Source of the DNA: Tribonema minus
Taxonomy: Eukaryota > Sar > Xanthophyceae > Tribonematales > Tribonemataceae
DNA length: 64,000 nt
Assembly (NCBI GenBank): GCA_017506865.1
Contig: JAFCMP010000036.1
Location: forward strand, 310,001-374,000
Direction: 5' to 3'
Part shown: piece by piece, positions 93-63,812 of the stretch
Layout: each line of letters begins with the position of its first letter
Numbering within the stretch: position 1 is the first letter of the stretch
Position numbers and translations under genes: made by a program
The notes under the pieces: generated by a model
What the model saw: only the letters and a program-made list of their open reading frames with translations
Database searches by the model: none
Told to the model about the DNA's origin: nothing

Positions 93-957
93 GATGCCGC
101 GCGCGCCGTGCTCATCGCCAACTCCACCAAGGTACGGATGCGCATACAATGTGTGCATGTGCATGTATACTTCACCGATCCATTCACTCAGCACGGCATG
201 CAGCACATGCCCAGGACCCCGGCATAAATGAGTGACGTAAGCTAGGGGCCGCAAGTTCACTTCACCGCCCCCTCCGTTTCCCGCTCAACCCCTCGCTCAA
301 GCGTACCACACTGAAGTACATGTAGCAGTATGTGATGTATAAGTAGACCATACTTCATATGTGTGTCTGGCGGGGCGGATGCCGTGTGTGCCATGCTCAC
401 CGTCAAGTCAACCCAGGAATATCTGCAGTCAACGCCGCCACTTCTAGCTCTCGAAGTACAAGCCATTTGTAATGAAGAGAGGGGGTGGGGAGGATGTACT
501 TGGTTGTTCTCTGCTGTAATCATGGTTCTCCAGCGCGCCGCCATAGCAGCGAGCGCGGTGAGCCCGAGCAGCTGGCGGCAGCGCTCAGCATTTGCATACA
601 CACCGCCGCCACTGAAGCACGGGCATGCCGCGGCGCCTGAAGCCAGTCGCAGGTAACTTTCCTGCATCTGCTCGTCCAACGCACGAGGTCAACACACAAA
701 TATGAATCATGCGTCTATGTGAAGCGCGTCTCAGTCGGCCCCTCTGCGCTGGGTTATTCCCATTCCCTGCCCCGCAGCGCAAGGCCGGCAAGCGCGAGGC
801 GCAGCTGGCGGCGGAGCGCGCGCGCCGCGACGCGCGCGCGGACGCCGCGCAGCTGCTGCACGGCGTGCGGCGCCTGCTCACCGCGGGCGTCCTCGACCTG
901 CCGCAGCAGGGCCTCGCGGCGCTGCCGCCGGACGTGTCCACCACGCTCGCCCTGCAG
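93..957 (+). CDS. LRR/WW gene exons 1-2: charged N-terminal helix
   Basis: Exon 1 (93-131, acceptor possibly at 91) ends in ...ANSTK and a GTACGG donor. Exon 2 (778-957) begins after CCCGCAG and ends CAG|GTGCGC. Phase 0 joins them into a strongly basic and acidic helical segment rich in Arg, Ala and Glu, followed by the first leucine-rich motif (LPQQGLAALPPDV). The gene may start upstream of the window, because no clear initiator Met with context is seen. Exon 1 has a decayed copy at 378-417; exon 2 has decayed 3' copies at 1140-1199 and 1380-1435. Confidence 0.65.
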
Positions 958-3900
958 GTGCGCGCCCCTGCCTCACACGTACTCGTGTTGTGAGTGCTTC
1001 GCGTGAGGACTTGGCACAACGATCACCGTGCTGAAAACCTGGTGTCGTGACGCGCTGAAACTAGTGTCGTGACACAAAGTTCAGCATACATGAAGTGCAT
1101 GTTGAAGTACAGACTTGAACTACATACTTGAAGTGCTCTGCTGCCGCGGCAGGGCCTTGCGGCGCTGCCGCCGGACGTGTCCACCACGTCGCCCTGCAGG
1201 TGGGCGCACCTGCCCCATATGTGCTCATGTTGTAAGTGCTTCGCATGAGGACTTGGCACAACGGGCCGTCGCGCTGAAATCAGTGCTGTGAAGCAAAGTT
1301 CAGCGTACATACTTGAAGTTCATGTTCAAAAGTACATGCTTTGAAGTGAATACTTGAAGTACATACTGCAAGTGCTCTGCTGCCATGGCGGGGCCTCGCG
1401 GCGCTGCTGCCGGAGGTGCCCACCATTCTCGCTCTGTAAGTGCTCCAATGCTGCCCTTGTAACAGTACTTCAAGCTTGCATCGTTTATTCCTTTGAGTCT
1501 TTGAAGGGTCCATGCCTGCCTTCGCTGTGCAGCGCATGTGTCGCGGAAGCGTGACCTGTAGGGCCTTCCTTGCGCACAGTAGGAAGCATCGGTGCCCTGG
1601 GGCTCTGTGATGCTCTAACCTTTCAGCTTATCCATCCCCCAACGCTGTTTGCCCTCAGCGCAGTGATCTCCAGCAGGTTCGCCTGCCTTCCAACATGTGC
1701 CGCCTGCGCTTGGTGGCTGTGTGGCCGGGCGACGCTTCATGCAGTGCCACAGCTGCCTGCTTGTGCGCGTCATGGCAACGTAACACTCGCGTCATAGAGC
1801 AAACATGGGGTCAATGGCTCACGTGCACTGAAGTTGGTGTCCCCACCACAGTTGCGGCGCAAGCTCGACGCACAGCCGCCACACACATGCCCTGCTGGCG
1901 GCGCTGAGTTTACCCCATGAGCGAGGTATTGAGGCTGCCTCCAATACGTGAGCACTGCTGCCACACCCCCATTTGTGCCCACCGCTTACCCTTCGGCAAG
2001 TACTCTCTCCCGCTTGCTGGGGCATGGCGCGGGGGAGAACGCAGCTCGCTCGAGATTTCACCCACTGGATCAACCGCTTCGCAAACGGCGGGCTGCACCA
2101 GCAAACTGTTGGTTGTGATGCCTTCAACTGCTAGCAGCGGTCGGCTTTTGCAGAAGTCTGATGGTTTCTGCGTTCCCGTGTGTCTCGTGCGCGCAGCTCG
2201 GTGGCCTACGGCGTGTCAACCTCCCGCGCAACGAGCTGAAGCAGCTGCTGACCGTCGACAATGCTGCTCTGAGCTGCGCGCACTTCAGGTGACGTCCCGA
2301 ACGGTATCGCCCTCCTGGCGTGTGTGGCGACGTGTTCTGGTGCATAGTTGCTGCGCTTTGCGCGCCGTTGCCTGTTCGGGCTGTGCGCGTTCAGTGACGG
2401 CAGTGGTGAAGCCTACATTGCCGCTTGACTTCCTCGTGGCTTTCGGTGTGTCACTGCACTGGCACAGCAACTGCCATGCATGTTGGCTCCTGTCGCCCGG
2501 CGATGCACGCCCAGGCGCAGATAGGCTAGCTCGTGCTGTGTAGACCAGCTCTGTTTGGTTCCTGAATGGCTCTTCTGGACTGGTCAGAGTGGTGGGAGGC
2601 TGATGATTGGTATGGCAGGATCACTGTGCGGCGTACCAGTGGTTGTGGAGTCCACTGTATGGCTCGTTTAAGGTGACGCTAGTGTCAACGCACGTGCTGC
2701 TACAAGGGGGGTCGGCTGCATGCCAGTACACAGATGAATCGCCTATGTACTCCCCTCATGTGCATGCAACTTCATGGCTTCACGGCGTACTGAGCTATAT
2801 ATATGATAATTCAAGCGCGTCCTGAACTTGCGACTGGTGCCGCTGGTCTTGCACGTCACAGGAGCGTCACAGATATGAACTTATCGGGCAACGGCCTGAC
2901 GGCGCTGCCTGCCGAGATGGGCCGCTGTGTTGCACTACAGGTCAGCGCTCAATGTTGAAACAAGCAACTGCAGGATGTGTTGGTGGAAGGTGCCACAATT
3001 CAAGTTCGCCAGAGTCATTTGCATCTGTCGTGTGTGTGGCGCCAGACTCTCGGAAGTACTTTATGCAGCGGCTGTGCGTCTCCCTCCACATGCACACGTA
3101 GATGGACCAAGCGGCTGTCGTAAACACATGTCGTACATGCGCCCAAGGGATCCCAACAACAGTCTCGACCATGGAGACTGGCCATACTTGCGTAAGCCTG
3201 CACGATTATGTGTGCATGACAGCATTGCTCCACAGATGATGAAGTGATTGCCCCACCCAGGGGTTCGCCATATGCCCCATGCAATGTCGTAATGACGCCA
3301 AGACCCCGATTTCTTGCGCTGCGCGTTGGCCGCAGACGATGCCTGGAGCAGAACCGCCTGTCATACATACATACATATAGGTGACGCTCTGGATGCCGGC
3401 TGTTGCGCCAACAGGGGCTCGTGAAATACTGCCTGTGACCCTATATTATGATATGGCGACATCATGAATAATTTGCTGCATTGTGCACTGGCCGCAGACG
3501 CTGCGCCTGGAGCAGAACCGCCTGTCGTCGCTGCCCGACTCGCTGCTGCGCCTGCCGTGCCTGCGCCGCCTCAACCTGCGCGAGAACAGCTTCGCGGCGC
3601 TGCCGTACGCGTTTGGCGAGCTCAAGTGAGGACGCCTGATCGCTGCTGCGCGCCCATTTGCCTGATGCCGAATTTGAAGTACCACCGTGCTTGTGCTGCA
3701 CAGAGCCTAGTGCACGACATTAAGCAATAACGTCAACATCGAGCGTCGAGGGCGCCGCTGCTGCGGCCGACAGCAACCTGTGCCCCACGCACTGCTGAGC
3801 CATGCACAAACATGAACATGAAAGTGTAATCTCTGCGCTGAACGCTAACGTTTGAATGCCAGCTACAGACACGTCTGCCTGAGCCGGTCAGTTTCGATCC

Positions 3901-6900
3901 TGCGACTGGCGCAGGCGCCTGACGTCGCTCGACGTCAGCAGGTCGCGCAGCACCGCTCAGCACATGACTGTCGCGTATAGCCATGAGACCTGGCGTCGCT
4001 GCGCTGATTGCGCGCACTGATCCGTTTGCCGCAAATGTGTTCACTCAAGTCGCCCTGATGGATTGTGTGGTCTTTGCAGGTGCCTGGAGTGGCTCGACGT
4101 GTCCTCCAACATGCTGTCGGCGCTGCCGCCCACGCTGCCGCTCATGCTGGCCCTCGCCCACCTGGTCAGTGTGTGCGACAGTTGCAACAGTTGCAATGGA
4201 GCTTTGACACGCTGGCTCTCTGTGTCGCACGCGAGCTTTCGTCACTCGCCAGCTGCTCTATGTTGGCGCACCTCTGAGGAACAACTTCCGAGAAGCATGG
4301 GGCGTACGGCTTCGGAGCGCTGTGGCCTAACCCTAACCCTAACCCTAACCCTAACCTTTGGCTTGACACCTGGTTGGCACCTGCAATGTACTTAGAAGCA
4401 TGAGTGTAACTGTGGCAGGCATACTGAGCGTTCTCGCAGATGACTACCTGAAGTGTCTCGTGTAGAGCGGACACGAAGTACCTTGGAGTACACCTTGTGA
4501 GGCTATGACCTTTTTGTTGCAGCTGCAATTGATGGCGCGCTTCTGTGCGCCTGCGCGTCGCTACACCTTTTGTCAGCATGAGTGTACTTTCTTGCGGCTT
4601 TGATCCGCTACCCTGAGGGCCTTCCACGGCTCTCGCGTCCGTGCAGCACGCGGGGCCTGCGCTCAGATCAGCCGCTGTCACCGCATAAACCGTAGCACCA
4701 TGCGGTGTGTGGTCGCGATGGTCTGAACGGCGCGCGACGTCCGCACCTCCTGAAGTAGTATTGTGCGCCACAAAAATACATGCTACGCTTTACGTTGCAG
4801 TGCTCAAACGGATGCCGCCGCCCGTTGCCTGCAGGATCTTGACAACAACAGCATGCCGCACCTGGCGATACCGCCGGCGCTGCGGACGACGGAGGCTGGC
4901 ACCGACGCCGCGGCGGCGGCAGCGCGGCGAGGACATGTGAGCACTGACGTCAGGACCGACACATTTGCATGCGCCGCTTGACGGTTACTGCTTCGGGCTG
5001 GCGTGCACTGGTTTCCGGCATTATTGATTGCGGGGGACTGTGCATGGGCACATGACAGGGTCGTGGTACTTGTGCCGTCGAGGATCTGTCCCCGAAAATT
5101 CTGGTTGAAGTTTGAACATGTGTGCGGGTCTGCATATGCAGATTGTTCATGCACCATTGTCAGTGGCTGTTCTCGCAATCACGCTGCACGCATGCGCACC
5201 AGCAAACGCGAAATGCAAACACTTGTTGGAGTTCCACTGCGCTGCTCTGATAGCGCTCGCTGGTGACATTGCCGCAATCCATTTTGCTTTTCCTCGAATT
5301 CTCACTGCTTGTTTCGCCGCCCGCTGTGGCAGGACGCAAACTGCGAGCCTGCTGAGCACTGCATCGCAGGCCTGCAGGAGGGGTCATCAGCGTACAACAA
5401 GCACCGCACGGAACTGGCGGACAGGTACAAGGACTGCTGAACTGCAAATGCGTCAGCGCACGCAGAGAGCACCTGCGCGTCCCAATTATACATTCTGAGG
5501 GGGCACTGCGCGCAGCAGGTCACTGCAGTAGTACGAAAACCGTAGTGAATGGATACACATGTTGCTTCATCCGTCATGTCAGGATGGTAGGCACATATGT
5601 GCGACAAGCGTGTACCGTACACTCCACAAAGAGTCTCTGATGCACATCATTCGCTTTCATGCACTGATTAAGGGGTGCTTGGTGCTCTGGCAGGGACACT
5701 GCCTGGTACTCCCGACAAGCTCGTTGTGAACTTTCCTTGTGGGGTCGCGGAGTGTATGCTATACTTGGAAGTACAGCAGGCTATGTATATACATCTATGG
5801 CTCCCTTGCACGTGTATGCTGCGCCGCTTCAGGCATGTCATGTCTTCGGAGTAGGTCTACGACTCATCAGGGTTAGAATCAGGGCAGTGGTATAATTAAA
5901 GGCCTGACATGTACGTGCTGCGCCGTTCCTAACGCATTTGCTGATGTCTTGAGGCCAGAGGTGAAATGGGGCTTAGAAGGCCAAAACTTCAAGCGGGGGC
6001 AGTGAGACCTGCAGTTGAGCATGAGTTGTTTCAATAACCTTCATCTGTTTGATCAGTTCATGCTCTTACGAGACTGCAACCTACACTGCCGACGTGAATT
6101 GTTATTTGCGGCTGTGCGCAGGGGCATCTTCGAGTGGTCCTCCGTACCAGACCCAGAGACAGGGCGTGTCACCTACCTCAACAACGTCAACGGCGACAGG
6201 AGGTGCGTTGTGTGTCGATCATGTGCTGCGTCTGGCTGCGCTTCTGCGGCTGCGGCGGACTTTCTGGAGCAACTCAATGGATGAGCTGCTGAACACTATG
6301 CGGACATAACTTCAACATGGCGTTGTGCGCTGGCACCTGTGTTGGCGCTGCTGCATCTGTGAGGGTTACTGCTGCCCGACCGTCCGATCTCAGAAGGAAT
6401 TTGGCTTTGGTAGCATTGAGGCCTCAAACACCGTGCCCTCGACCTTGACGTACGCGTTTGCTGCTGTGCGCGGTGTACTCGCACCCGCACCGACATGACA
6501 ATGCTATCTGCACTTAGAACAAATACACAGGTTCTGATCGATGCGCTGCTGCCAGCACCGCCACCTCTCTCAGTGCATCTGCGCTCCGCGCGTCACCAGT
6601 CCTGCAGTGTGCATCTGACTACCCAAAGCTGTAACATCATATTGGCATACACAAGTACTTCAAGACGAGACTCACTGGTGCTTGTGCTGTCACGCCCCGC
6701 TGCCGGCAGTGACGCGCTGCCTGCCTGCATGGACCGCCTTGGCAGCCTGGCCAGCCTCACCTGTCTGAAGGCCAACAGGAATAGGTTGCGCAGGTGAGCA
6801 CCGCCAGAAGTAGGCCTTGGTTGATGCTTGGGAAGTGCTGGGTTTGTTAGGAATAGGGTTGGGGTTATTGTTAGGCTTGGGTTAGGCCGTCTGTCGCACC

Positions 6901-9900
6901 ACGGTCGAGGCATACTGCTGCTGCATATCACAGCGGGTTACTTCAGAAGCAGTTGCCTTGCAACTTCTTTGGTGCTTTTGCACCTGTCTCAAGGCCAGCA
7001 GAATTAGGTCGCGCAGGTGAGCACCGCTCGTAGGCCTTGCTTCATACTTCACCTATGGTAGAGGGGGGGAGGTTACTGACGGGGAGCTACATTCAATTAG
7101 GATTGTGATCGGCTGCTGCTAAACACTCAAGGTGCAACACTTAGATGTAGCAGTATTTGCGTTGCACACTGCTTTTGCATTCAACTTCTAGCATGCACGG
7201 TGCACGTGTCTCAAGGCCAACAGCAACAGGCTGCGCAGGTAAACACCACCACCAAAAGGCCTTGCTCCATACTTCACGCATTGAAATTTGTAGAAGGGGA
7301 GCCTCCGAGTCGTTGCGTCGGGGTTGTGATTGGCTGCTGCCAGGTACACGAAGTTGAGTGCCCCGGAAGTGGCAACGTTTGATTGCACAATGGTTTCTGC
7401 GTTCCATTGTTACCATGCAGGATGCAAGGCAGCATTTCTGTGCCACTGGGTTTGAAGAGCATGCCACCTCGTGAGGGGGGAGGGGGGGGGTGGCGAGCAG
7501 ATCCGGGGGGGGGGGGGGGGGGGGGGGGAGCACATAATGAGTGTTACGCGGGGCCCTGTGCTACTTCAAATAAGTATTTTAGCTATTTGTTACCCTACAG
7601 TATGACAATGCTGAGCACTTGCGGCTGAGCTGACACGTCCTATATGCGCTGTGGGTCACTGACTTGATAGCTTTGTTATGTGCCCTACAGCGTCAGCGCC
7701 AGAGATATTTGGAACGCTTACAAGCAGTTCAAGAGACCTGCACATTTCATCGTGTACGCCTGATCTGCATTGTGCGCAACTCAGTGTTTCAGAAGCATCT
7801 CAGCATGGTGCCCACTTTGCACCACCCTGTGTTAAGCATTTCAACACATTGCCGAAACACACCACCAACAAGCTGTGCAGCTAGATTTCCACACTTCCTC
7901 TCTGGTCTTGGCGTGAGCGCAACTTCACCCTGCGACTTCAACTGTGACTCTCTCAATGCCCCCACGGCAGCCTGCCAGCGAGCGTATGCCACTGCGCGCA
8001 GCTCACGCGCCTGGAGGCTAGCAGGAACTTTCTCGAGGCGCTCCCCGCGGAGATGGGCCTGCTGCAGAAGCTGGAGACCCTTCTGCTGGACAAGAACTGC
8101 CTGTCGCAGCTGCCGGGCTCGTTTGCCAAGTGTCAGAGGCTCAAGGAGCTGAGCGTTGCTTCAAACTACTTTGTTGAGGTCAGTATACTTCTGAAGTACT
8201 TGAGGTTGCAGTATAGATCGCCCAAGTAGTGAACACAAAACCACCGCAGCAGTATGCCAGGTACGCTTAAGCGAATGGAAGCTGGAAAGTTTGCGGCAGT
8301 TGACTCCCTGCTGAAAATCGAGTTGGTGCTAGTCATCCATCGTGGCAGAGCAGCATGAGGCATTTCGTTTATGCTGTTCGCCAAAAAGCTCGCGCCCGAG
8401 CAGCTTGGCGCAGTATCGTCGCACTGCCACCTGTGCGCCATCCAGCGCGTGTCACAGCCGCACACACGCCTGCAGTGCCGTACGCTCTCGCAAGCGCCTC
8501 GTTGCACAGCTCAAGGCAGCAACCCCATCCTAAACGAGCTAGGGGCGAGTGACCCCTCACAAGTGCTTCACAAAGCAACGCACCGTCACACACGGGCACT
8601 TTGCACCAGCGCCCATGCTCCCAACATCAGCGCTGAAAGCCTTTGCACACATCGCCCTTCCGCCGCCCTGCGCAGCTGCCCGAGTTCTGCATGCACCTGC
8701 GCAGCCTGGAGCAGCTGCGCATCGGCTCCAACCAGCTGCAGCGCCTGCCGTACGCACTGGGCCTGGTGACGACGCTGCGCGAGCTGCACCTGCACGACAA
8801 CCCCCTCGTGGACCCCCCGGCGTCGCTGCTGCTGCAGGTGCGTCCCCCCCCCCTTTTGCCCCTTTGCAGGGGCAATGGTGCTGCTTCGCCCCCTTGTGCA
8901 GCAGAGCCCGTGAGCAGCGCCTCACTTGTAATTGCACCTGCACGACACCCCCCCTCGTGGACTCCCCGGCGTCGCTGCTGCTGCAGGTGCGGACCCCCCC
9001 CCCCGCCCCGTGTCCTCCCCCTTGCGAGGACATTGGTGATGGTTTGCCCGCCTGTGCAGAATAGCCTGTGAGCAGCGCTCGGGGATCTTCTCATACCAGT
9101 AGGTGGCTGCGCCAGGATAACACCGTACCCTACGGCGTTGCTGCTGCTGGTGCCCCCCCCCCCCCCGCCCGTGTCCTCCCCCTAGCAGGGGCATCAATGC
9201 TGGATTGCCCCCCTGTGCAGCAGAGCCTGCGAGCAGCGCTCGAGAAGTTTATCACAGGCAGTTGCGCCTGGACAAAACCGCCCTCGTGGAACCCTCCGCT
9301 GCAATACCGCTGCTGGTGCGCCTTCCCCCCTGTTCCCCTTCCCTCAGGGCATAGGTGCGCGCGCTGTGCACTGCCACACACAGCACGTGGGCAGCGCTCA
9401 GCATGCTTCTGGTCGGTGATGTGCAGGTGTGCCTGGTGCTGCGGGTGGCAATGCGCCACACGGTGCATGCCCTCTTTTGTCCGCCTACATAGTATCGCCA
9501 TTTCGCAGCCTAGCGGCCAGTGCGTCAGCGCGCGATCACCGCAGGCGCAATGAGACGTCGGGGCAGTTTCACTTGTGATGGTGGCCTGCACATTCCACAT
9601 TCGCAATTTAGGGCTTCAATGCGCTGTTGTGTGAGCAGGACATCTAAGCTTAACGGACACGGCACTCGCACGCTACTTAGATTGCTGTTTTAACAACGTG
9701 CAGATGAGCTGCTGTTCAACTGCAGGAGGCACTGCTATTCGCCAAAGAGCCACGCAGCAGATATTTCTTATGGTAGAAGCGGTTGCACACCGTACCCTGG
9801 TGCTGGCAGGGTACAGACGCGCTGCTATTCGAGACTACTCTGCTTCACAGAGGCACACAGCGCATTTGTTTGTTTTATTCGTCGTGGTAACACCGTCCGC

Positions 9901-12900
9901 ACACTTTTCTCTTGGGAGTTGCAGGGTACAGACGCGCTGCTGTTTGAGTGCAGGAAGCGCTACTACGCGCAGCAGAAGGGCCTCCCTCCGGCCGTTGGCG
10001 TGCACCAGTACGGGATACAGGTGCGCGCGCGCTCGGCGGTAATTCCATTACAGCAAGCCGTGTGGGATGCTGCAGGGTTGTGTGTTCAAAACGCTGCCCA
10101 ATGTGAGACAAACACGAACGTGTGACTGATAAAATACTGTTTGCAGAAGTGCAGAAGTGCTGTGCACGGTCAACGCTTCCAAACCTGTTCCGCAGTTACA
10201 TGGGAACCATGAAGGCTGATGATGGTTATGGCTTTTCGCAGTACTTGACCGTGCTGTGCCCGGAATTGTGCGCCTTCGTTCGCGCAGGGTGAGAAGCTGG
10301 CTCTCGTCCCTGAGTTCAACGCCAAGCTGCAGGCGGCCCTTGACAGGGCCGCAAAGTGCGGCGAGTTCCACTTCACGATGGAAGGCTTGAAGGTACGGCG
10401 CGTGCTGGTTTGTGTTCGCTGCAATGGAGCTCAGTCAACGAGATGCTTGATGTCATGTACTTGCTGCATTTCCAAGCGATTGCCTACATATCGATTGCCT
10501 ACACACCGAGAAAGTCACGATGCAATCGCCTGCACCAACGCGATCGCCTGCACACTGGCAAAGTCAGAATGCGACCATGTAGTGGGCTGTCATAAAGCCT
10601 CACCGCTGTCTGACTGCCTGGGACCTAGGCATCATGTACCTAACCTTCCATCTCGCAGGCTCGAGTCGCATCAGTGACAGTGCTCTGAATAGTGCCAACC
10701 CGAACTCTCTGATGTGAACTCTGCATCCCTTGCAGCCTGCCGCTGCAAACGCCGCTCACCCGATGTCTCTCTCACCCGAGCTTCGAACTGCCCGGTGCTG
10801 CACGGTGGCATGCGTCACCCAGTGCAGTCTACAATTGCAAGGCGTCAGTCACAGCATTCACATGTGCGAACAGCGTGCTGCAGACCTCTGCATACAAGCC
10901 ATCTTGTGCGCTCTCTACAGCACATTTGCTGTAGCAGAGTCGGCGGTGACTCCACTCACACCAGAAATGTGTCGCCAGTCCTGTACCTGACACAGCACCG
11001 CTGCAACGCGTGCCACGTCCACTGCAGGCGCTGCCCGCAGGCCTGTTCAAGCCAGCGGTGGCAGCGGCGCTCACGTCCCTGCGCCTGGACACAAATGCCA
11101 TCGGCCCTGGGCCCCTGGAGTGGTCGAAGGAGGTCCCCCCCGACCCCCTGGCGCCGCAGCAGGTAAACTGAGCGTTGAAACCGTGTGTGGAAGCTCAAAT
11201 CGTTCTCTCTCGCGCGCTGGTTAAGCACCTTGGGCTTTGATCGCCTTCGATGAAGCAGAGCTTTGCGTGCTGTGGGTATCGATCTGCTCTGAAGCTCGAA
11301 TCTGCCGCTGTCCTTACGAAGCATGCCGTCTTGATCTGCCACTGCAAGGTGAGTACCTATGACCTTTACCTACCCTGCTTGCGCTCCGCCACCCCCCTGT
11401 GGCAAGCACATCATCCGCCCCGTAGAGTTGGTGCTATAGTAGGTAGTCACTGCTGTGCTGGACTGGCTGCAGAGGCGCACACGCGCGCCGCGCCTCGCAA
11501 AGCACTTTCAGATGACCCACACACTACGTCCCTCGCGCGTGCATACATTCACAGCAATCGCACACAACACACAATGAGACCGCTTTGGCGGTAGCATAAT
11601 CTCACTGAAGCGAGGCCTCTCAGCAGACAAAGCTGAAGCTCAGATTTGGAATTTGGTTGAGTTCAGGGTGAGGGGTAGAACTAGAGTTGGCGCCAGGGGC
11701 TGGAGTCGGTTAGCGTCACAACTTGAGACCCGGAGTACTTTCACGTGCAGCAACATGCCATTGCTCAGCGAATGGCCCCCCTGCCTCTGCGCGCACCCTC
11801 ACAGAAGCGGCAGAGGGGCCAGCCACCCCCCGGCCCCGTCACCGTGACCTTTGCCCACCTCCGGGTGCTGTCGCTCAAGGGCTGCGGCCTACGCGACGTC
11901 GGCGACGGCGTGCGCACGCTGACGGCGCTCAGGGAGCTGCTGCTGGAGCGCAACCGCCTCACCGCGCTGCCGCCGGCGCTGCTGGCTCTGAAGCAGCTCG
12001 AGGTACTCTCAGTGATGATGAACACATCGTGCATGTTCGTTGTCGGTGCCGTACTTCAAGGCCGTGAGACAGCGCGAGATGCAGAGGCAACAAGGACTGT
12101 GCTCGGCTGCGTTCACACATGTGTGTGAGCACACGCTCGAAACGGGCACTAGGTCTGCATATCTTGCCTCTTTCATAGGGTTTCCGCCCCTCAAGCAGAA
12201 GTACACAAAGTAGAGTGCGCGTGCGTGTGGCATCACTGCTGCCAGCCCAAGACGCGATCTGTGGAGCGGGGTTCGGCCGGCTCGAGTGAGTGAGCCTGAG
12301 GCAGCTCGAGGTGCAGCGGCGACGATAAATCAAGAGCGCATGGTCATTGTATGTCCGTTGGTATCGCTGTACTTGAAGACCTCAAGACAGCGCGAGGTGC
12401 GGAAACAAGATGTACAGGGCGTGCGTGTGTGACGTCCCTGCTGCCATGTAGCTCAATATGGGATTTACTGAGTGGGGCTCTGCTGACTCGAGTAAATGAG
12501 CCTGATGGTGGGTGCGTCCTCGCTGTTCCTCGCTGTGGGCATAGCCCACTTCGCCGCGGCCGCCGGCGCTGCTGGCGCTGAACCAGCTGGAGGTCCACCG
12601 GCAGTGGCCGAATGAGCATGCTCCTGTTCAGTGTTGTACTTCAGGAGGGCATGCGCTGCATCACCGGTCACCTGACAGGCTCCTTTGAGCATGGTGGTTG
12701 GTGTGTGCACATTGAGCCATGACTGGCACTCCAGGAGGGCACGGCTCGAGACAGGAACATTTACTGAGCTGCCGCCTCTGCGGCAGGGCCTGAGACAACT
12801 AGAAAACGTTTTTTGAGCAACTGATTTACTGACAGTGCCATATTCGAGTGGATTAGGTAAAGTTCACGTCGGCCTGTCACTAGAGCAGCCACTTTCTGCC

Positions 12901-15900
12901 CACCTTATGACTTGGATGTACAGTGTGTATGGACCTTGATGGACGAATCGCATATTCTATCCTGTAATGTGAGGCTTTGGCAGGGGGGGGGCTGCCCCTG
13001 CACCCTCACAAAGCCCTATTCCCGCCACGCTGCAATGTCATCACACGAGCTCGCCACACACACACCCGTCCAAGCCCGTCCTGGCCCACGAGAATTACTG
13101 TGGAGCGATGCTGCATGGCCGTCTGTCCCTGATCCTACCCCTAACCCTAGGCTGCGCGTCTCATCACACTGAGCGCTGCCCTCGCGCGCAGGTCCTGGAT
13201 CTGTGCGAAAACCGCATCATGGACCTGCCCGCAGACGTCGGCGCGCTCGCGCGCCTGCGGCAACTTGAACTGTCCGGCAACCGTCTCGAGCTGCTGCCGG
13301 AGTCTATCTGCAGCTTACGGCAGGTACACATGTTGCCGCCATGCCGCTGCTTGGGATCCGCTCATTTCTGATCCATAGAACGTTATCAGAAGCAGTGGCG
13401 ATGTCCTGCCGGACTGTATCTGCAGCTGGCGGCGGGTGTGATGCCGCCGCGCCGCTGCCTGTGGTCCGCTCATTTAGAAACCGTTCTGGCGACTCGCGTC
13501 AATGTGAGCGTTGCTTGCCTGATGTACTCCAGGGAAAGGTGTCCAGCAACAGGGTATGCTAAGAGCTGCTGTCAGACTTGATCCGCAGCTTGCAGCTGAT
13601 GTGGTGCCACATTGCCGTTGCTGGCGGGATTTTTTATCCTCTCTGTTGCAATGGGCAAGTGCAGATGTGACGGACTGCACCGCAGCTGCTTGATGCGCGC
13701 CATCAGAAGCACATGCTGATAACTCTGGAACCTCCAACACTTTTTAGGAAAGTCTTTTATGTGCCCCGCTGAGAGAGATGGGGGATGGGGGGATAGGGGA
13801 GGGGTCGCCTTTTGTGAACACCATCGTAGGCAACAACTTAGCAAGGTCCATCTTGCGATGGTATACCTATCTGCCATCCCGCACCAGACGACGAGGAGAG
13901 AGTCTGGTGTTTGGCGAGTTGGTGGCTATCGAATATAGTCGCGCAGGCACAGGTTGCGCGACACGCTAAACACTGACGATGCTGTGCCATGCCATGAACT
14001 TGCATGAGATTGACATCTGCTGCTGTGCTGCATCGTGCCTGTCGATGATGCCCCGACAGCTGCACACGCTGACGCTGGCCAACAACCTCCTCGCGGCGCT
14101 GCCGACGTCCATCACCGCGCTCTCGAGCCTCAAGGTACGGCGCATGGACCAAATACTGACCCTTACTCTGGTCCGGAGTCCTGATGTTAACCCACCCCAT
14201 TTGGCCCATGCGCCACAATTTGGGTATGCCGCATGGGCCACATGCTAACCCTCACTCTAACCCTACCGCTAACCTAACCCCTATCCAATCCCTGAACCCG
14301 GACTACCTCGCCAGTACTGGTGTCCGCAAAAGCGGGTTTGGACTAGGACAAGCGGTAGGCATGGGGTAGATTTAACAAAGACCCGAGCCCTAGTTCTGAC
14401 TTTCCGGTCACACACTTTAAAGTACCATGTTGAAGTCACGGATTGTGGAGGGACGGGCATCTTCACAGCGCTGTCTGAGGGTTAGCGGCAGCACCTGCAA
14501 CATTGGCATGCCAGTGCCAGTGCACTCAGCTGGACACAGGAGATCATATGACGATTCACCTGCACTCTGGCGGTCTGCCAAAACTATTTGCCACATGAGA
14601 AGCGCACTCTCTTGTCTGCAGGAGTTGGGTTTAAGGCTGGGGTATCGATCTGGTTTGGTCAAGCACTCAACTTTTATATGACTTGAACACGGGCCGGCGT
14701 GTCAACCAGCGCCCGTCGGTGGCGGCGGCAGCAGGTGTGAAACAGAGCGCCCGCGAGCCAACTTCAAAGCGCGTTGGACATTGTGTGCCCCGTCACTCTG
14801 CCCGCCTCCGTGTTCCCCAAGGATATTTCCGTCACTTGGTGGCAGCGTTTGAATGCCGAGAGCACAAGCTGCACGCGGTTTCATTGTGTCGCCGCCGGCG
14901 CGCACACGCCATGCGTGCACTGCCGCGGCCCTGGTCGCCGATGTGTGCAAGGCAGCTCGTTCTTATCACAGTTTCTGGCACCGCACTTGACTCCGACACA
15001 CTACGCGGCGTCTCTCATGCATGACACCGCACCACTTTGCAGCACCTCGTCGACAGCTGTCAGGCGCTTGCCCTCCCGAGCACTGCCGTGCAACACTTAT
15101 TGTCTTAAAGGAACACGTTACTACTTCTCTAATTGTTTCTTGGAATAGTCTTGAGATCAGGCTTTCATACATCAAAGTATTGGCTTGTTACCATTATCAC
15201 ACTATCTTAGTTCTGACATCAGCCTTTCGAACTTTGAAGTACTGCCTATAATCCTTCTCACACTATATTAACTTTGAGATCAGCCTTTCATACATCAAAG
15301 TACTGGTTTGTTGCCTTTCTCACACCATGTCGGCAAGTGCTGGACATCGGTGGCAACAGGCTCGCGCGCTTGCCGCCGTCCACAATCATTTTCACGCTAT
15401 GTTGGCTTTCAGATCAACCTTCCATACTTGCAAGTAATCTTAATTACCACTTTGACGCAATGTCTGCAGGTGCTGGACGTCGACGGCAATAGGCTCGCGC
15501 GCCTGCCGCCGGGCTTTGGCGCGCTGCGCCTTGAGGCTCTCAGGGCGGCGTACAACAGGCTGGAGGCGGTGAGCGATGATGCGCTCACGCCCAACCTGCA
15601 CGCGTCGCTCAAGCGCCTGTGGCTGTCGAGGTGAGCAGTGTGATGTACTCTCACGAAGCCGACACAATATGTTCTTCAAAAGCGGATGCAGCCGATTGAG
15701 GTACTTGGCAACACGCATGACTGACACGCTGGCGGCGCTGAGCGATGATGCGCGCGTGCCCAACCTGCGCGCGTCACTCAAGCGCCTGTGGCTGTCGAGG
15801 TGAGCTGTGCAACGCATTTGTTGTACGAGTGCATTATGTCTGTTCAAAGCTGATGCAGCCTGTTGAGGTGCGTGGCGACACGCATGACTGGCAGGCTGGA

Positions 15901-47534: not shown

Positions 47535-48544
47535 TCAAGTGTGCGCTACTAACTCATCAAGAATCAAACCCGTTTCACCTGTCAAAAGTAACGGAAAACG
47601 GCTGTTTGTCGCTCCTCTCCTCGTCCTCCGCCTTTCCGTCCTCTGAATCAACCCCGGGGCGCCTCTGCAGGCACATGCCGCACCCTCTGAAAGGTTGGCA
47701 TATGATGACAGATTGGCTAGGCTGTAGTTGTGCGCCCAGGTGTGTTTTGGGGATAATATCTTAACCCCCTTTAAGATAGGTACCGCGATGCGTTGCGTTT
47801 CATCGACAACACCTGTACGACAGGCACCTAGATGCGTTGCATCGACACCTGGGCGCACATATCAGCCTAGAGTAACTACCAGCCCCACCAGCCGAGCCAG
47901 GCTGATGACACAGCGTCGAGGGATCATCACGCATAAGCGTGGCAAAGGCTACACCTTGTCGGACTGTCTCAGCTGTCACACTGCAGAGCAACTTGTGAAG
48001 CGGCGAGAGCACCCTCGAAGAAGCGACAGTGGGTTTGTTGTCAGTGTGCAAGAGCAGGATTTCTGCGCAGCCCCGGTATTCATAGTCGTCCCGACATGTT
48101 TCGAAATATGCGTCGTGTACTACTCAGATATTGCACGGCACCGCAAACAACAATCAGTTCATGTACAGTACTTCTCTACATATAAATGTGCAGACCGCTG
48201 TGCCGTGGCCAGCAGCTGCGCAGATCACCAAACCTCATAAAGCTTGAGGGACTCATGCAGTTGTTGTGCCGCGCAGGTACATGTACAATACTAAACCTCT
48301 AGCGCGGCGAAGCTAGGGGGTCAGACAAGACTCCTGACCAGCGCTTCGCTTGCTATGCTACTGCTCGTAGGTGAGGAAAGGAGAACGCTACGGATAGCTC
48401 GTGCTAAACAACCTGGAGCCTCCATGTCGCCGCATGGATGGTTCAAAACCCGCTCATCACCTTCTGCACTACGCGCATTCAAGAGCGCTGTCACTAGCTG
48501 CTGAACCTCTGTGTTGGGCTGTCGGCTGGAGCTGGCCTACCGAA

Positions 48545-48765
48545 CACGTGAGACCTGTCCATACTGAACACCCATGCCTCGAACGCTAAAAACCTTGCAC
48601 ACAGAAGTCTTTTTGACTGGTGGATACGGTGGCACTGTTTGACTCGTGGCCAATGACTGCAGCAGCGGCGACCACGGTTATTGGTGGAAGGCACTCGCGG
48701 CTAACCATCCCTTGTCACCTAGAGCTCAACGATCTTCTTGACTCGTTTTTCACTAAACATGTGCG
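48545..48765 (+). repeat. dispersed repeat family R1, copy 1
   Basis: About 75-80% similar by eye to 51177-51410. It carries the frame MVALFDSWPMTAAAATTVIG, also present in the other fuller copies, and the end CACCTAGAGCTC followed by GATCTT. Confidence 0.85.
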
Positions 48766-49990: not shown

Positions 49991-50357
49991 AACTGAATCG
50001 ACAAGTGCAGCCATTGCATTGCGAACACTTGCCGGCATTCGTCACCATGGCTGGCGTTGTGCTGCTCCGCAGCGCTGCCGTCACTGCGATGTCTGCCTTC
50101 TGGTAGGGCGAACGCACACCCAGCTGCAGCAGCAATCATAGATTGACCGAGGTAAGGTGACATTGAACCTGCCTGTACTACATTGCTGTGCTCATGTGGT
50201 ATCCGACGTGTGAGCGTTATGGTCACGAGGAGTGTCACGGGCTCATGGGGCCAGTTTGCTGAAGTCTCGGTTGCTCAGTATTGCACTCAAGCTTCATAGG
50301 TTCCACCCACCGATGCTCTAGATCCTGTTCGTCTTGGTGTTGTGGCGCGCAGATCAG

Positions 50358-53300
50358 ATGGGTGGTACCATTAGCCATGGTTCGGAAGGCCGCAGCGCTG
50401 CTGCCGTAGCACGGGACGTGTTCCAGGACATCAGCGGCCTCATGAGGGAGACGCAGGCCTTCGCAGCATGTAAGGCCATGCAGCTTTTGCTGCTGGACTG
50501 GGCAAACTAACTGCAGTGTGTTCGCTAAATTGTGTGCCTGCCTACTGCTTCCAGAGGCTGTTCAATGTTGGCAGGCCGTTGCAACGCGGGGCCTGGCCTC
50601 ATGTCAGTTTTGACCCGGCTGGGGCCTTGTGCAAAAGCAGCTTCCACTGCCAGGCACACGGTGCCACCGTGCCAGTGTGTCACAGGATATTTTACGGTAG
50701 CGATGTACACATCAGAGCAGCATGTTGGTCGGGTTTTCTGAGGTCTGTTGATGCCACTGTCGCTAGCCCCTGTACCTGCACCAAGTCTTGCGACCCTGCA
50801 ACGCCGCTATGACGGCTTCTGTCATGAACTTGGCAGCCCACTGCACTGCTGATCAGGTGCGCTGATCAGAGCACAGCGCCCGCAGCGCGTGACTCCGACA
50901 GCGTCCAATGCCATCATACATTCTGATAATGCCCAGTGCATCAACACTTGATTGATCAACGCATAGCAGCTGGTGATGCGCTGAGCAACTGCACGACGAT
51001 GTCCTCAACCTCTCCAGGGACGATCGCGGACGTGAAGGAGCTGCACAGGCGGTTTCAGCGCATGGTGTTTGGCTACAGCCTCGTGGAGCCGCAGCTGGAG
51101 TGCGTGCTGGCTTTCAAGAAGGGGCTGGAGGCTGACGTAAGTTTCAATTCTGACTTCAGCACTGGCATCACAATAGTACACGTGAGAGCTTTCCATACTG
51201 AGCGTGCATGCCCCGAGCGCTAGAAAGCTTGCACACAGAAGTCTTCTGGCTACTGTGGATATGGTGGCACTGTTCGACTCGTGGCCAATTGCCGCAGCAG
51301 CGGCGACCACGGTCATTGGTGGAGGACATTCAATTTGACGGCTTAGCCCACCTTGTCACCTAAGTAGAGCTCTACGATCTTTTGATGCGTTTCCATTAGT
51401 GTTCAAGCCAGGCAGGGGTTACACGGGACTCACACCCACGTAGGGTCTTGCAGAATTCCCGTTTGCAATGCCAAGTGTGCTACAGCTGAGTGCTGTCCAT
51501 TGGCTAATGAAGCGGCCGTTGTAATTGGCAATCATCTGCAGTAGCCCCGCTGCGCTGTCATCTCATCACAATGCACCCAGCCAGTGGGAAGCTTGTCGGC
51601 GATTAGCTCGCGAACCGATGACTGCTGCGCTGCACGAGCGCAAAGTCACTGTGCACTTGCTCAACTCCTGCTCAACAGCGTCGTGGTGCTTCAGTGCAGC
51701 CATACGCAGAACCATGCCCGCATGCAACATTAAAGTTGAAAGTCACACACCGCGCAGCGACCAGCGCATCATCATCCTGCAGCCCTGAGTGCGCAACACC
51801 CACGCCCCAGCCCTAGCCCTACACCACCACCCCGCCTGATTGCTGCCATTCGCATTGGTGAACTGCCCTGCACGTCCGCCACAGGCTGGCGCGTCTCTGA
51901 GCGTTGCTGTTTCTCGCGCTGGACAACAACCTCAACGGGCGTGTTGTCGCGCAGCGTCCGCTGTGTGCATCGCGCTTGACCCATTCACGAGAGATCCCCT
52001 GCCGCTGCTGCTGCGTTGTTGAACGCCTCGGCACGCCCGCCGCCACAGCTGCGCGCGCCCCTGAGCGCTGCTGTTCCGCGCGCTGCACAACACCCTCGGC
52101 TGACACATTACTGCCCCGCATTGGCTGTGTGCCTTTCACGAGATGACCACTGCCGCTGCTGCGTTGCCATGAACCCACTTCGCGTGGCCCCCGCAGCTGC
52201 GCGTGCTCCTCTGCACTGCTGTGTCATGTGCTGGACAACACCCTCGGCTGACGCATTACTGCCCAGCATCGGTCATGTGCCACTCATGACATAACCCCTG
52301 CCGCTGCTGCGTTGCCATCAAATTGCTTTGCGTGACCCCGCCGCAGCTGGGCGTGCCCCTGAGCGCGCTGTTCCGCGCGCTGGACAATGACTGCGACGGC
52401 CGCATCGACGGCCTCGAGCTCATGGGCGGGCTCGCGCTGTGCTGCCACGGCACCTTCGAGGTGCGCGCGCGCGCGGTCCCGATCGCTGAGAACGAAGTTG
52501 CTGGGAGCGTACCCCAACAGTCAGCATGGGGCAATGGGCAGTTGCTGCTTTGAAGTGTATCATGTATGTGCGCGTGTTTCTGGAGTGGTCGCAGAGATTG
52601 TTGGTGTTGAGGTGCGCGCTGTGCGCTGAAGCGCAGTATACACTGTACACCGAGACACTGCAAGTGGTGACTCGCAGTGAAATGGGCGGGCTGGCACTCT
52701 GCTGCCGCGGCACATTTGAGGTGCGCGCACGCGCGCGATCGCGATCGCTGAGCGCTGGAGTGCAGTTGCTTGCTGGGAGCATACCCAAACAGTCAAAGCG
52801 GGGCAATGGGCAGTCTGAGTCGTATCTGTGCGTGGTTCTAGAGAGGATCGTAGAGATCGCTGGTGTTGAGGTGCGCGCTGCGTGTTTGCTGAGCACTGAA
52901 GTGCAGTATACACTGTATAAGTGTGGTGACTGTAGTCAATTGGTGCAATCTGAACGTGCATTCACATGACGTCAGCAAGCATCGGCGGACGGGGATAGAG
53001 GTGGGCGGCACTAAAGCGCCGGAAGGGATGGCTGTTGTGCCTGCACGCCAGATGGCAGCCACGGCTACTGCTACTGTTCATTGAAAAATTATTCAAGTGG
53101 TGACTCGCAGTGAATTTGCGCAAATATGGGAACGAACAACGCTGCACCAGAACGGCACCGATGAACATCACTGCACTCTCTGCCTGACTCATTACGTTCT
53201 GCAATCTCAGCCATGCGCAGCCCTTTCATGTCACGCACGGTCGTCACGGACTCATAGACATCAAGCCCCCACAACCGGCAACTGTTGGCGCCTGCCTACC

Positions 53301-54255: not shown

Positions 54256-54295
<40 letters not shown>

Positions 54296-61300: not shown

Positions 61301-63812
61301 TGTGATGATGGGCAAAGTAGCAGCGCTGCTCGCCATCTATGTTTACTTCAGCGTACCTACTTGGTGGTACTTTTACTCCTGATAAGCGTTTACGGACTTA
61401 TAGAATGAGGGTTTAATGCCAGGTTAACCCTAACTCCGGGCTCGTTGCGCGCGCTTCAACACCAACAGCGCGTCATTGCTGTGACAGCATAACCTGCCGT
61501 CTACTGACTTCATGCTATCAGTGATACTTTTGACGTCGTCAGCGGTAGTGCTGGGCTTTGAAGGGAGGGGCGCCTATGTATGAGCTCTGCATGCATGCAT
61601 ACATCACATGCCACTGCGCAGCTCTTTGACATGAGGACATCACATGCAGACCGCCGTCCTGCGCCACCGGACTTTTGACGACACGCATGGCGGGCTGGTG
61701 TAACGTCAACCACCGCTATCTGCGGCGCGCCTCTAGTCTGGATGCCGCGCACACACAAACCCCTCTCTCGAGGCCGTTTACCTCCCCGCAGCAATTATCA
61801 TAGGTAGAGCTATCGCAAAACTGCATGACAGCCTCTCCAGTACCGATGTGCTGCACGTGGACCTCGCTGCCGCCCTCAAAAGACAGCACGTGCCCTCTCG
61901 CGTGCATGACGCGGCAGCTCGGGTACCTCAATACCTCTGCGGCGCTGCAGATGCGCTGCATTTCAATTTCTCTACCGCCCACTAACAACAGTGCGCGCGC
62001 CCTCAACCCCTAGCCCTTACTCTAACCCTGATCCGGCAGCTCGGGCACAGATCCGGACCACTCGCTCGCGCTATACGACTGGGCGGCGGCCGCGGCAAGC
62101 GGTGACGTCAGCCGCGCCCTGGTGGCCACGGGCAAGGTATGTAGGGGTATGCCTGCCCCCAACCTAACACCTATCGTGGGTTTGCACGTACGTAGGGGGA
62201 GGCCCACTTCTTGTGGATTTGTAGGCAAAGAGGTTGCGTCATCAGGGGAGCAAGATAAATCGTAAATTCGGCGTGCTTGTGTGCGACCAATGCTCTCGTG
62301 GAGCGCACTCACGGTGCAGCTTCCCTCAGCGAGGTGTAAAGTGCAATGTTCGGCGACCGCGAGGCTCGTTGCATTGTTGCAACCCATGCGAGCGTGTGAG
62401 TAAGGGTTATAATACACGGCCGAGCTTGTTGCGCTTGTTCGTCAGCGCTTGTGCCTGCATGCCCCGGATGTTGCCACTGCACTGGCGTCACCCAAACGAA
62501 ACAATGTCATCGGCCCTGACTCACAGCTGTGGCTCACATGATCATGCGTGCCGTGGAGGAACGCCGGCACTCTCATGCTACCCACACACCCCCCTGCTTT
62601 ACATTGTCCTCACAGGGCCATAGACGTCGCACACTGGGCCTAGCATTTGCCGCGGACGGTCGCTCGCTGTGCGCGGTGGGCGTCGGCTTTGTGCGCTTCT
62701 TCGCGCGCGAGGGGCGCTGCCTCGAGGGGCGCTCCGCGCGCATCACGCGCGGGCCCGCGGGCACCCCCCGGGGGGGGCACCTTGGCAAATGTGAGCGCGG
62801 TGGTATGACGATGGTGATGACGTGTGCTTGTGGGGCTGCACCAGCGGGGGGCACCACGGCAAACGTGAGCCGCTGAGCGCGCGCTGGCATTGATGGTGGT
62901 GGTGATGCGTGATTATGGGGGTTGCACCAGCCGTGGCTGTACAGCAGGGCGCGGTCTTTCCTGCTTTACAAAGTAACGATGATGTGAGGTGATGGGGCTG
63001 CACCGGCGGTGGCGCCACGCAGCAGGCTGCGGTTGCGTCGCTGCTCCAGACAGTGGCAATTTTATTGTTGGGGTTATTCAGTAGCACCGCTTTAGAATGA
63101 GGATATGGTTATTGTTACTTTTGGGATTATTTGATAGTAGTACCACTTTAAGGTGAGGATATATGTCTGTACAACGTTCAGATGGCCGGTGAGCGCAGCT
63201 GCTCCCGCGCGGCGAGAAGCGCTTGCGTCGCTGCCACGAACAGCGGCCAATGGGTTCCCTGCACCCAGTCTGGACGCCACCTCGGCACGCTCATCACCTG
63301 CCCTTGTGTGGCTATGTAGGGCAAGAGCTATGAAAATGCAATGCTCGGGGTTGCCCAGTGCGCGCCATTGCTCAGCAGCGCGCCCATCCTGCAATACATA
63401 CCTACCCACCGTGACGCGTCACGCCGCCGCCGCGCGCCATCGCAGCCGCCGCGCCCGGGCTCGGCAGGCTGCAGACGTTCCTGAGCGTTGCGTACGTTCT
63501 TGCAATGCATACATATCTACCATCGTGACGCGTCGCAACGCCGCCCTGCGCCGCCGCAGCCGCCACGCCCGGGCTCGGCAGGCTGCAGACGTTCCTGAGC
63601 GTTGCTTACGTGGGCATGTATACTTCGAAGTACATACGTACCCATCGTGACGTGTCATAACGCTGCCCTGCGCCATCGCAGCCGCCGTGCCCGGGCTCGG
63701 CAAGCTGCAGACGTTCCTGAGCGTTGCGTACGTGGGCGCGGACGCCGTCGTGGGTTGCGCCAGCGGCGAGCTGTACCGGTTCAGGGGGCGGCAGCTGGTC
63801 CAGGTGGTGCAG
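50358..63812 (+). CDS. EF-hand and EMAP-like (HELP/WD40) protein, 14 exons, 3'-partial
   Basis: Exons: 50358-50469, 51018-51136, 52347-52460, 53411-53560, 54313-54398, 55299-55385, 56625-56707, 57623-57776, 59088-59230, 59940-60021, 60536-60655, 62040-62136, 62616-62790, 63682-63812; 551 codons so far, every phase matching. The N-terminus has EF-hands; the C-terminal part has the HELP motif and the start of a WD40 propeller as in echinoderm microtubule-associated protein (EMAP/EML) relatives. These bind tubulin and microtubules, often in cytoskeleton or cilia. EF-hands would add calcium control (inference). The gene runs past the right edge, so most of the propeller is missing. The chosen ATG (50358) gives a possible N-myristoylation start, MGGTIS. 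Confidence 0.88.
51177..51410 (+). repeat. dispersed repeat family R1, copy 2
   Basis: Lies in the intron after EMAP exon 2. It shares the frame MVALFDSWPIAAAATTVIGG with the copies at 48545 and 55405, and the same right end (GTAGAGCTCTACGATC). Confidence 0.85.
51886..52320 (+). repeat. three 5' copies of EMAP exon 3 in ~150-bp units
   Basis: 51886-51945, 52049-52110 and 52197-52255 match the exon 3 start (LGVPLSALFRALDN), each after a CAG acceptor. The intron following each copy (CCCCTGCCGCTGCTGCGTTG) also recurs. Spacing is about 150-163 bp. Similarity to the real exon falls unevenly. Confidence 0.92.
52461..52930 (+). repeat. 265-bp tandem duplication with exon 3 3' copy
   Basis: The exon end GGLALCCHGTFE plus about 200 bp of intron is repeated. 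The copy's exon part is 52681-52720 and keeps GAG|GTGCGC. Shared intron blocks include GGGGCAATGGGCAGT and GCAGTATACACTGTA. Confidence 0.93.
53372..53396 (+). repeat. poly-C tract before acceptor
   Basis: A run of over 20 C ending about 15 bp before the EMAP exon 4 acceptor (53410). A similar C run at 18060-18075 leads into the LRR exon 22 acceptor. Both can act as the pyrimidine tract. Confidence 0.85.
53676..54200 (+). repeat. weak copies near exon 4 end
   Basis: GAGTACTTTGAGGTGCGCGC at 53676-53695 matches the exon 4 end (HFE|GTGCGC). Segments 54043-54103 and 54128-54190 are near duplicates of each other (CCGTCACTTGGGC, then AGCATGTACTTCT). Confidence 0.65.
54256..54298 (+). repeat. CTG microsatellite
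   Basis: About thirteen CTG/TGC units directly upstream of EMAP exon 5, ending 14 bp before the acceptor at 54312. Confidence 0.95.
54457..54507 (+). repeat. decayed copy of EMAP exon 5 3' end
   Basis: Encodes DGSGCVCFSEFLQ, near-identical to the exon 5 end, then GGGCGTGATG in place of the donor. Confidence 0.93.
55405..55575 (-). repeat. dispersed repeat family R1, copy 3
   Basis: Inverted copy in the intron after EMAP exon 6. On the minus strand it reads MVALFDSWPIAAAATTAVIG, then LTIPCHLELYDLLIRF. Confidence 0.85.
55570..56395 (+). repeat. intron direct repeat, ~90 bp, two copies
   Basis: 55572-55660 and 56288-56390 share GGCCCCGAGRTTTGC, TTGCTGCAGCAGTGCTCAAC and CTGATGCGTGAGA in the same order. 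Confidence 0.8.
56625..56707 (+). CDS. EMAP-like gene exon 7: acidic linker with GC donor
   Basis: This encodes an acidic stretch (CDEGCSDIEEELRSEAP). It ends CTCAG|GCATGT, a GC-type 5' splice site. The resulting phase 1 fits the next exon, which starts with two bases after CGCGCAG at 57622. No GT donor nearby gives this phase, so a GC-AG intron is the best reading. Confidence 0.7.
57042..57230 (+). repeat. two 5' copies of EMAP exon 8 intron end and acceptor
   Basis: Two copies of the sequence that precedes exon 8 (CTCGTCTGCTG, then GCGCAG|GC) lie at 57042-57110 and 57161-57230. The true one is 57572-57640. A weaker trace may exist near 56925-56990. Confidence 0.8.
57623..63812 (+). CDS. 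EMAP-like gene exons 8-14: HELP motif and WD40 repeats
   Basis: Exon 8 ends LHLDWVHGVNCADC, and with exon 9 (RNQVRYV then ESVVLYPAATVAVLYSP and RYYQGHAG) forms the HELP module typical of EMAP/EML proteins. Exon 10 gives VSVAVHPSGGLVATGE, exon 11 PEIHVWSTDTLQCKAVL and VALLAFSPDGSLLA, exon 12 SSGTDPDHSLALYDW, exon 13 LGLAFAADGRSLCAVG and VRFFAREG, and exon 14 LQTFLSVAYVGADAVVG and GELYRFRG. These are successive WD blades in the EML order. The exon 12 acceptor at 62039 is chosen because it keeps phase and blade. Confidence 0.92.
57858..58436 (+). repeat. five decayed 3' copies of EMAP exon 8 HELP end
   Basis: 57858-57903, 57961-58010, 58118-58157, 58251-58294 and 58391-58436 repeat the exon end NLHLDWVHGVNCADCR. 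The first reads LHLDWVHGFSCADCR; the last is barely recognisable. Donors vary: CAG|GCGCGT, CAG|GTGCGC, CGG|GTGCGG, CGG|GTGCAT, none. Units are 105-145 bp. Confidence 0.93.
58888..58972 (+). repeat. degenerate TTAGGG tract
   Basis: Several TTAGGG-like units spaced by short sequence, ending about 115 bp before EMAP exon 9. Confidence 0.85.
60784..61173 (+). repeat. three decayed copies of EMAP exon 11 3' end
   Basis: 60784-60828, 60962-60999 and 61125-61173 repeat VALLAFSPDGSLLA. Donors are AAG|GTAAAA, AAG|GTGAAC and a lost one. Spacing is about 172 bp. Confidence 0.93.
62840..63025 (+). repeat. decayed copies of EMAP exon 13 end
   Basis: 62844-62870 repeats GGGGGGCACC..GGCAAA with donor C|GTGAGC. 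Weaker relatives (GTTGCACC/GCTGCACCRGCGG) are near 62920 and 62998. Confidence 0.7.
63400..63616 (+). repeat. two 5' copies of EMAP exon 14 with acceptor
   Basis: 63445-63496 and 63559-63616 repeat GCAG plus PGLGRLQTFLSVAY of exon 14. The intron ahead (ACATACCTACC...GTGACGCGTC) is repeated as well. Units are 114-122 bp, and the true exon starts at 63682. Confidence 0.95.

Follow-up and report, generated by a model that had tools for sequence, protein, structure and literature searches.

Recurrent tandem duplication across exon-intron junctions as a probable source of silent intron growth in the yellow-green alga Tribonema minus

Introduction

In the potato RdRp gene, one tandem duplication that crossed an intron-exon boundary created an intron; the splicing signals were carried along and part of the former exon became intron, as in the case described here (PMC4974935). 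That was one event in one gene, giving a new intron and an added exon, whereas in Tribonema minus copies were present at 26 of 105 testable exon edges in five of six genes, often from several events per edge, and existing introns were lengthened without evident protein change. A reviewed model of intron gain starts from an exonic AGGT segment, the duplication of which yields a new intron (PMC3443670). The model shares with our case a tandem duplication in a gene and an extra copy hidden by splicing; here, however, it is the junction itself that is duplicated, and the copies stand apart from the opposite splice site. Introners share with our case the growth of intron content on a genome scale, but they are dispersed similar sequences, while the units tested here occurred at one locus only (PMC9860276). 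The word "Tribonema" is absent from the text of that paper as available. Direct repeats near splice sites have also been described, and lie at intron borders like those reported here. They are 4-30 bp long and pair both borders of one intron, whereas in T. minus units of ~150 bp repeat one border inside the intron (PMC11782384).

Our literature search brought up no paper that deals with the introns of Tribonema or describes junction duplication recurring so as to lengthen introns. An earlier note on this DNA, made from the sequence alone, had known of no description of dense junction duplication. This holds for recurrent cases, none of which was found, but one potato event is on record. Set against that single, already known event (PMC4974935), what is new here is the recurrence of junction-crossing duplication.

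Materials and Methods

The sequences were from the xanthophyte (yellow-green alga) T. minus, whose assembly comprises 158 Mb in 554 contigs. The window is the whole stretch of 64,000 nucleotides to which the earlier note referred. Two of its genes were modelled exon by exon: an LRR gene (23 exons, window 778-19686, plus strand) and the gene for 20S proteasome alpha-4 (PSMA4; 3 exons, minus strand), whose identity was supported by a Proteasome Pfam match. Arrays in the genes at ~20.8-27 kb and 52-63.8 kb were judged by eye. The LRR exons were set from reading frames and splice consensus because no annotated record of the LRR protein itself was among the best 120 of 138 matches. An open frame at window 45767-46525 (minus strand) weakly matched a FUT8-like fucosyltransferase, with a score that did not reach the curated cut-off, and an Rfam search of the window gave 0 matches.

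Elsewhere, exon models were made with a purpose-written spliced protein-to-genome aligner. It matched the annotated CCT7 protein (contig C235) exactly over residues 2-581, and the CCT8 model (contig C135), which uses exon-proximal splice sites, equalled the annotated T. minus protein P0241 except at residues 2, 3 and 5. Reference proteins for the CCT3, CCT1 and PSMA4 models were taken from a PDB search. The loci L031, L032, L037 and L039 are those of CCT3, CCT7, CCT1 and CCT8, respectively, and CCT5, CCT4, CCT2, HSP60 and cpn60 are what we take the genes so named to be. In eight more genes the exon bodies were set by HMM matches only.

Results

Self-comparison of the window gave 63 direct repeat pairs and 1 inverted pair (within 3 kb, E<=1e-3). 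Eight of the direct pairs give the finding no support, because seven belong to an ankyrin-repeat coding array and one to a dispersed element (48544/51178). The ankyrin array (window 32633-33412, plus strand; Pfam Ank families) is a tandem repeat unrelated to the exon-edge copies. In 17 other stretches (163 kb) there were 193 direct and 13 inverted pairs, compared with 0 in shuffles; a coding-looking array at L043 contributed 9 of the direct and 7 of the inverted pairs, and the direct pairs per stretch ranged from 0 to 33. Short-range direct repetition is common outside the window, though uneven.

The 26 exons of LRR and PSMA4 had 20 same-strand matches in adjacent introns, all of them 0-7 bp from the facing exon edge, and 0 on the opposite strand. 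In non-adjacent introns or in the introns of the other gene, 0 matches were found at 12-fold exposure. As a control, 20 dinucleotide shuffles pooled gave 7 matches, of which 1 lay in an adjacent intron on the same strand and 1 in an adjacent intron on the opposite strand. At least one adjacent-intron copy was carried by 12 of the 26 exons (10 of 23 in LRR and 2 of 3 in PSMA4; 13 edges), which is in line with the 25 of about 55 exons counted in the earlier note. That note had asked for same-strand hits to adjacent exon edges only, and this is what the test gave.

The same held in other genes. CCT3, CCT8, CCT1, CCT7 and PSMA4 gave 37 adjacent same-strand matches (one PSMA4 match being common to this set and the set of 20) and 0 on the opposite strand. 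No match was found in non-adjacent introns of the same gene, and 3 same-strand matches were found in the introns of other genes at 17-fold exposure; 20 shuffles gave 9 matches, 1 of them adjacent. Furthermore, eight more genes gave 42 same-strand and 0 opposite-strand matches, at 19 of 61 flanks. The genes outside the window in these two sets included chaperonin and kinesin genes. A lack of enrichment beyond the window had been named beforehand as a reason to give up the idea, and enrichment was present in both sets. Exon-edge copying is real and well above chance in several unrelated genes.

The copy load differed strongly within one chaperonin family: by the same test, copies were present at 8 of 14 edges in CCT8 and 6 of 16 in CCT3, but at 1 of 16 in CCT7 and 0 of 16 in CCT1. 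The initial description of the copies as dense and gene-wide fits CCT8 and fails for CCT1 and CCT7. Genome-wide protein-family searches showed partial copies in CCT3, CCT5 and CCT8, in a few kinesin exons and in one myosin exon. Counted by eye, these were about 4 of 56 chaperonin rows, 3-4 of 137 kinesin rows and 1 of 99 myosin rows, a small share, so that at the sensitivity of these searches the copying is by no means universal.

The strictly anchored copies numbered 51, at the 26 edges of 21 exons (17 of 51 donor edges and 9 of 54 acceptor edges), and all the copies examined lie within existing introns. Their exon part had a median of 53 bp. Successive steps were 75-242 bp in 48 of the 51 (median 152), compared with units of about 100-290 bp in the earlier note; the other three were 341, 590 and 710 bp. 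The 48 steps fell 17/17/14 modulo 3. The flanking intron arm was also homologous in 37 of the 51 copies (p<0.05 each, splice consensus excluded), while 14 had no significant arm homology. Head-to-tail arrays of several units were found, for example in HSP60 (151 bp x 3.5 units, 97%) and cpn60b (166 bp x 4.9, 89%). As in the potato gene, the duplicated segment consists of exon edge, splice site and intron sequence arranged head to tail; the homologous arms and these arrays bear out the proposal of tandem duplication across the exon-intron junction. In the set of 37, 34 copies reached the facing edge within 6 bp and the other three stopped 7, 19 and 23 bp away. The statement that exon interiors are not copied without an edge is supported to that extent, but tandem geometry makes such a result inevitable.

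Introns with copies (20 of 53) were longer than the others, with medians of 1003 and 512 bp (p=1.4e-5), and short-range direct repeats covered 23% of 37.1 kb of intron. The exons with copied edges were longer as well (162 vs 128 bp, p=0.001), and the GC step at copy-bearing edges was slightly larger (0.12 vs 0.09, p=0.01). Arm folding energy (p=0.13) and arm GC (p=0.15) did not differ at copy-bearing edges, and a hairpin or arm-GC cause was rejected on these values.

The features of the window are collected in Table 1. Its last three arrays look junction-spanning by eye only; the open frame 24521-25174 at the first of them had no Pfam match.

Table 1. Exon edges, their copies and tandem arrays in the window (positions in the window; identities are to the exon edge)
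Feature	Exon edge or array	Copies	Strand	Remarks
LRR exon 1, 3' end	898-957	1141-1199, 1380-1436	+	95%, 82%; 0, 3 bp from donor edge; unit ~240 bp
LRR exon 4, 5' end	3505-3526	3341-3362 (upstream)	+	7 bp from acceptor edge; longer pair 3309-3362 / 3471-3526 has the acceptor inside
LRR exon 9, 3' end	6758-6793	6981-7016, 7203-7238	+	86% each; steps 223, 222 bp
LRR exon 11, 3' end	8785-8837	8933-8986	+	94%; within decayed array to about 9330
LRR exon 12, 5' end	9925-9965	9810-9833, 9698-9737 (upstream)	+	92%, 78%
LRR exon 15, 3' end	11965-12002	12555-12592	+	89%
LRR exon 16, 3' end	13294-13321	13406-13433	+	86%; step 112 bp
LRR exon 18, 5' end	15470-15511	15337-15378 (upstream)	+	88%; alignment runs on into intron arm
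LRR exon 18, 3' end	15555-15630	15724-15799, 15892-15964, 16108-16153	+	89%, 89%, 78%
LRR exon 19, 3' end	16586-16654	16712-16777, 16838-16906, 16978-17045	+	steps 123, 129, 139 bp
LRR exon 20, 3' end	17638-17733	17823-17926	+	78%
PSMA4 exon, 3' end	39841-39764	39640-39563 (downstream)	-	78%; step 201 bp
PSMA4 exon, 5' end	38357-38324	38492-38459 (upstream)	-	94%
Tandem array	25117-25435		+	period 142; coding-looking exon end with GT donor, by eye
Tandem array	52039-52387			period 148; AG-acceptor-like site and coding-looking piece, by eye
Tandem array	63393-63735			period 114-122; splice-site-like borders, by eye

Over 101 copy matches at 35 exons, mismatches between exon and copy at codon positions 1, 2 and 3 were 7.6%, 5.7% and 15.9%, and those between copy and copy 11.8%, 10.5% and 19.4%, close to the pattern expected of a free copy beside a silently changing exon. 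Position 3 mismatched slightly more than two times as often as positions 1 and 2 did on average, a small excess which we attribute, by conjecture, to faster change at GC-rich third positions. Of 41 copies, 16 were gapped, and 14 of these had a non-triplet net indel; in the first set of 37 copies all 7 with a net length change were non-triplet. At the copy junctions of this first set, 15 of 16 still had AG and 14 of 21 still had GT, which gives no indication that the copied sites are under selection. Non-coding decay in most arrays and the greater length of copy-bearing introns agree with the early suggestion that the extra exon piece becomes intron and that introns lengthen. The decay with distance noticed at the outset was also recovered: the nearer copy was more similar to the exon in 82 pairs, less similar in 30 and tied in 2 (n=114), as if new copies join next to the exon. 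That the process is ongoing, as then proposed, is a reading of the youngest arrays only.

Derived changes at positions 1 and 2, the only ones counted, were shared between copies in 36 cases and unshared in 465 (36/501, 7.2%; 25 arrays), so that the copies descend from the exon more than from one another. The intron arms were 70% identical, unrelated arms 60%, and a simulation with the same detection filter and rates that we assumed expects 84% when exon parts are 90% identical; the ungapped identity profile drops sharply at the junction. This gap between arm and exon part could reflect faster intron change, repeated conversion of the exon part or constraint on the pieces.

Some short motifs were over-represented in the sequences. 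In 54 introns of six genes, TTGAAG and CTTCAA occurred 40 and 43 times against 7.2 and 10.6 expected (4-5 fold), with no clear clustering beside donors; within 100 nt of acceptors, CTTCAA was found 9 times and TTGAAG 0 times. The telomere-like motif CTAACCCTA was found 62 times in the window and L031-L049 (236 kb) against 1.5 expected, and TTAGGG 16 times in introns against 4.6. The telomere-like motif may mark healed breaks.

Discussion

We consider it probable that tandem duplications of about 150 bp have frequently crossed splice junctions in T. minus, with the exon-proximal site kept in use and the introns growing silently. Small tandem duplications of this size would be frequent in the introns. 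Where the duplicated segment straddles a border, the order would become exon, splice site, intron piece, exon piece, splice site and intron, and the mirror image would arise at acceptors. The spliceosome would keep to the site next to the intact exon; with that site still in use, the protein would stay unchanged and the extra exon piece with its splice site would become intron. Through repeated events at one border, new copies would be placed beside the exon, older decayed ones pushed outward, and the intron made longer. We infer the use of the exon-proximal site, and the annotation agrees for CCT8. Several observations count against this explanation: the intron arms are less alike than simulated, 14 copies are without arm homology, the cpn60b array behaves differently (see below), the gene load is uneven, and 3 same-strand matches lie in the introns of other genes.

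Error-prone end joining and the fill-in of staggered breaks leave tandem duplications in plants, and one of these is our guess at the molecular cause. In plant break repair, insertions arise as short tandem duplications, which in unit size and tandem form are like the units here; we know of no tie between them and exon borders.

The copies might instead be parts of exons that are used alternatively or in mutual exclusion and that selection has preserved, which would explain why their exon parts are better preserved than their intron arms. The best case is the cpn60b array (L041:6412-7210, contig C516), in which a chaperonin exon end has four intact copies with GT..AG-like spacers of ~47 nt, and exon end and copies differ almost exclusively at third codon positions. 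Among its copies c2-c5, 37 of 40 pairwise differences are at third codon positions, 22 of these being C-G exchanges; a residue that is Arg in the others is Cys in the copy joined to the exon. This array may be in use, or recently have been so. For most arrays, however, the alternative-exon reading meets copies that are partial, steps that are random modulo 3, net indels that are mostly non-triplet and mismatches at positions 1 and 2 that are not suppressed overall, and none of the copies appears in the annotated CCT8 protein. Whole exon copies with an intact frame, as mutually exclusive exons would be, were not found among the arrays, cpn60b being the one exception. The earlier note had held real mutually exclusive exons to be fatal to its idea; they are rejected for most arrays, with cpn60b and its third-position differences set apart, and we regard selection for alternative exons as very unlikely to explain the copies in general.

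Origins by insertion or by classical intron gain fared worse. Dispersed short elements do exist in this genome: a ~205 bp element occurs in both orientations at window 48544-48748 and 51178-51392, at L031:3181-3276, L034:6991-7086 and L041:4428-4638 and in L045, with 2583 candidate places at first look, of which 40 were scored, at 92-100% identity. It is a short, mobile-looking family, and illustrates how a mobile family would appear here; a piece of a dispersed element also lies in CCT3 intron 4. If introner-like mobile elements with splice sites had inserted beside exons, similar sequences would be seen at many loci. Yet 334 bp from the array at LRR exon 19 matched a single locus in the whole genome, their own, and a stretch of the HSP60 array matched only its own locus in 158 Mb (searches which skip very common words), and this speaks against mobile elements. 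Among 26 arms compared with the other examined loci, 25 were without match, and only the CCT3 arm with that piece of a dispersed element matched. Moreover, the copies are made of local exon. We reject a mobile-element origin on these results, and find it highly improbable. The classical route of intron gain, in which an exonic AGGT segment is duplicated in tandem, has the tandem duplication of exon sequence in common with our case, but needs the exon copies to lie against the opposite splice site. None of the 51 copy junctions was within 10 nt of it, the closest being 160 nt away, and most copies carry intron sequence; this route was rejected too, as scarcely credible for these copies.

A sharper form of the preferred reading, recurrent duplication across junctions, is that the duplications are directed to live splice junctions and hardly occur elsewhere in introns, for instance owing to breaks linked to transcription or splicing, or to nucleosomes placed on exons. 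Tandem Repeats Finder, which ignores exons, found 24 arrays of period >=85 in 236 kb. A splice junction is included in 20 of them; the exon table shows this for 7 (one by only 2 bp), and our own reading of the unit or other analyses for 13. The remaining 4 comprise 3 coding-looking or ankyrin arrays and one without class (L046:7037-7213). All four arrays with >=89% match were junction arrays. The descent of the copies leans the same way: under a model that lets dead copies and the live junction duplicate equally often, 11.3% of derived changes should be shared (7.2-17.4%, P=0.03) with detection bias included, and 17.9% without it, when 0 of 300 runs were as low as the observed 7.2%. However, because the exon is conserved, half of each pair stays recognisable; a visibility bias is therefore real and accounts for part of the excess, and the arms at copy-bearing edges are alike in folding energy and GC. 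With exons and exon copies masked in five genes, junction families made up 8 of the 18 families, where uniform placement would give 30.7% (p=0.16). For this value, 6 families that have an exon or exon copy at just one of their sides were filed as non-junction, a filing that decides the result; the other 4 were wholly intronic. The claim of a process aimed at junctions, towards which the tandem arrays and the descent pattern lean, was not kept because this masked test was not significant, and directed duplication is at present doubtful. It is rather unlikely that live junctions are duplication hotspots at which a transcription- or splicing-coupled process repeatedly copies a nucleosome-sized segment, rarely across dead copies, and so drives a steady lengthening of introns.

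The length of introns is generally explained by transposons and small indels. In T. minus, a different source would be visible at base resolution, in which segments at splice junctions are duplicated repeatedly and the exon serves as a built-in reference that dates each duplication event. If this were true genome-wide, the copies would provide a natural record of splice-site choice between tandem, nearly equal sites and a clock for intron growth. It would also pose a testable question, namely whether working splice junctions are themselves fragile, and this possible aim at working junctions is the most interesting part of the finding.
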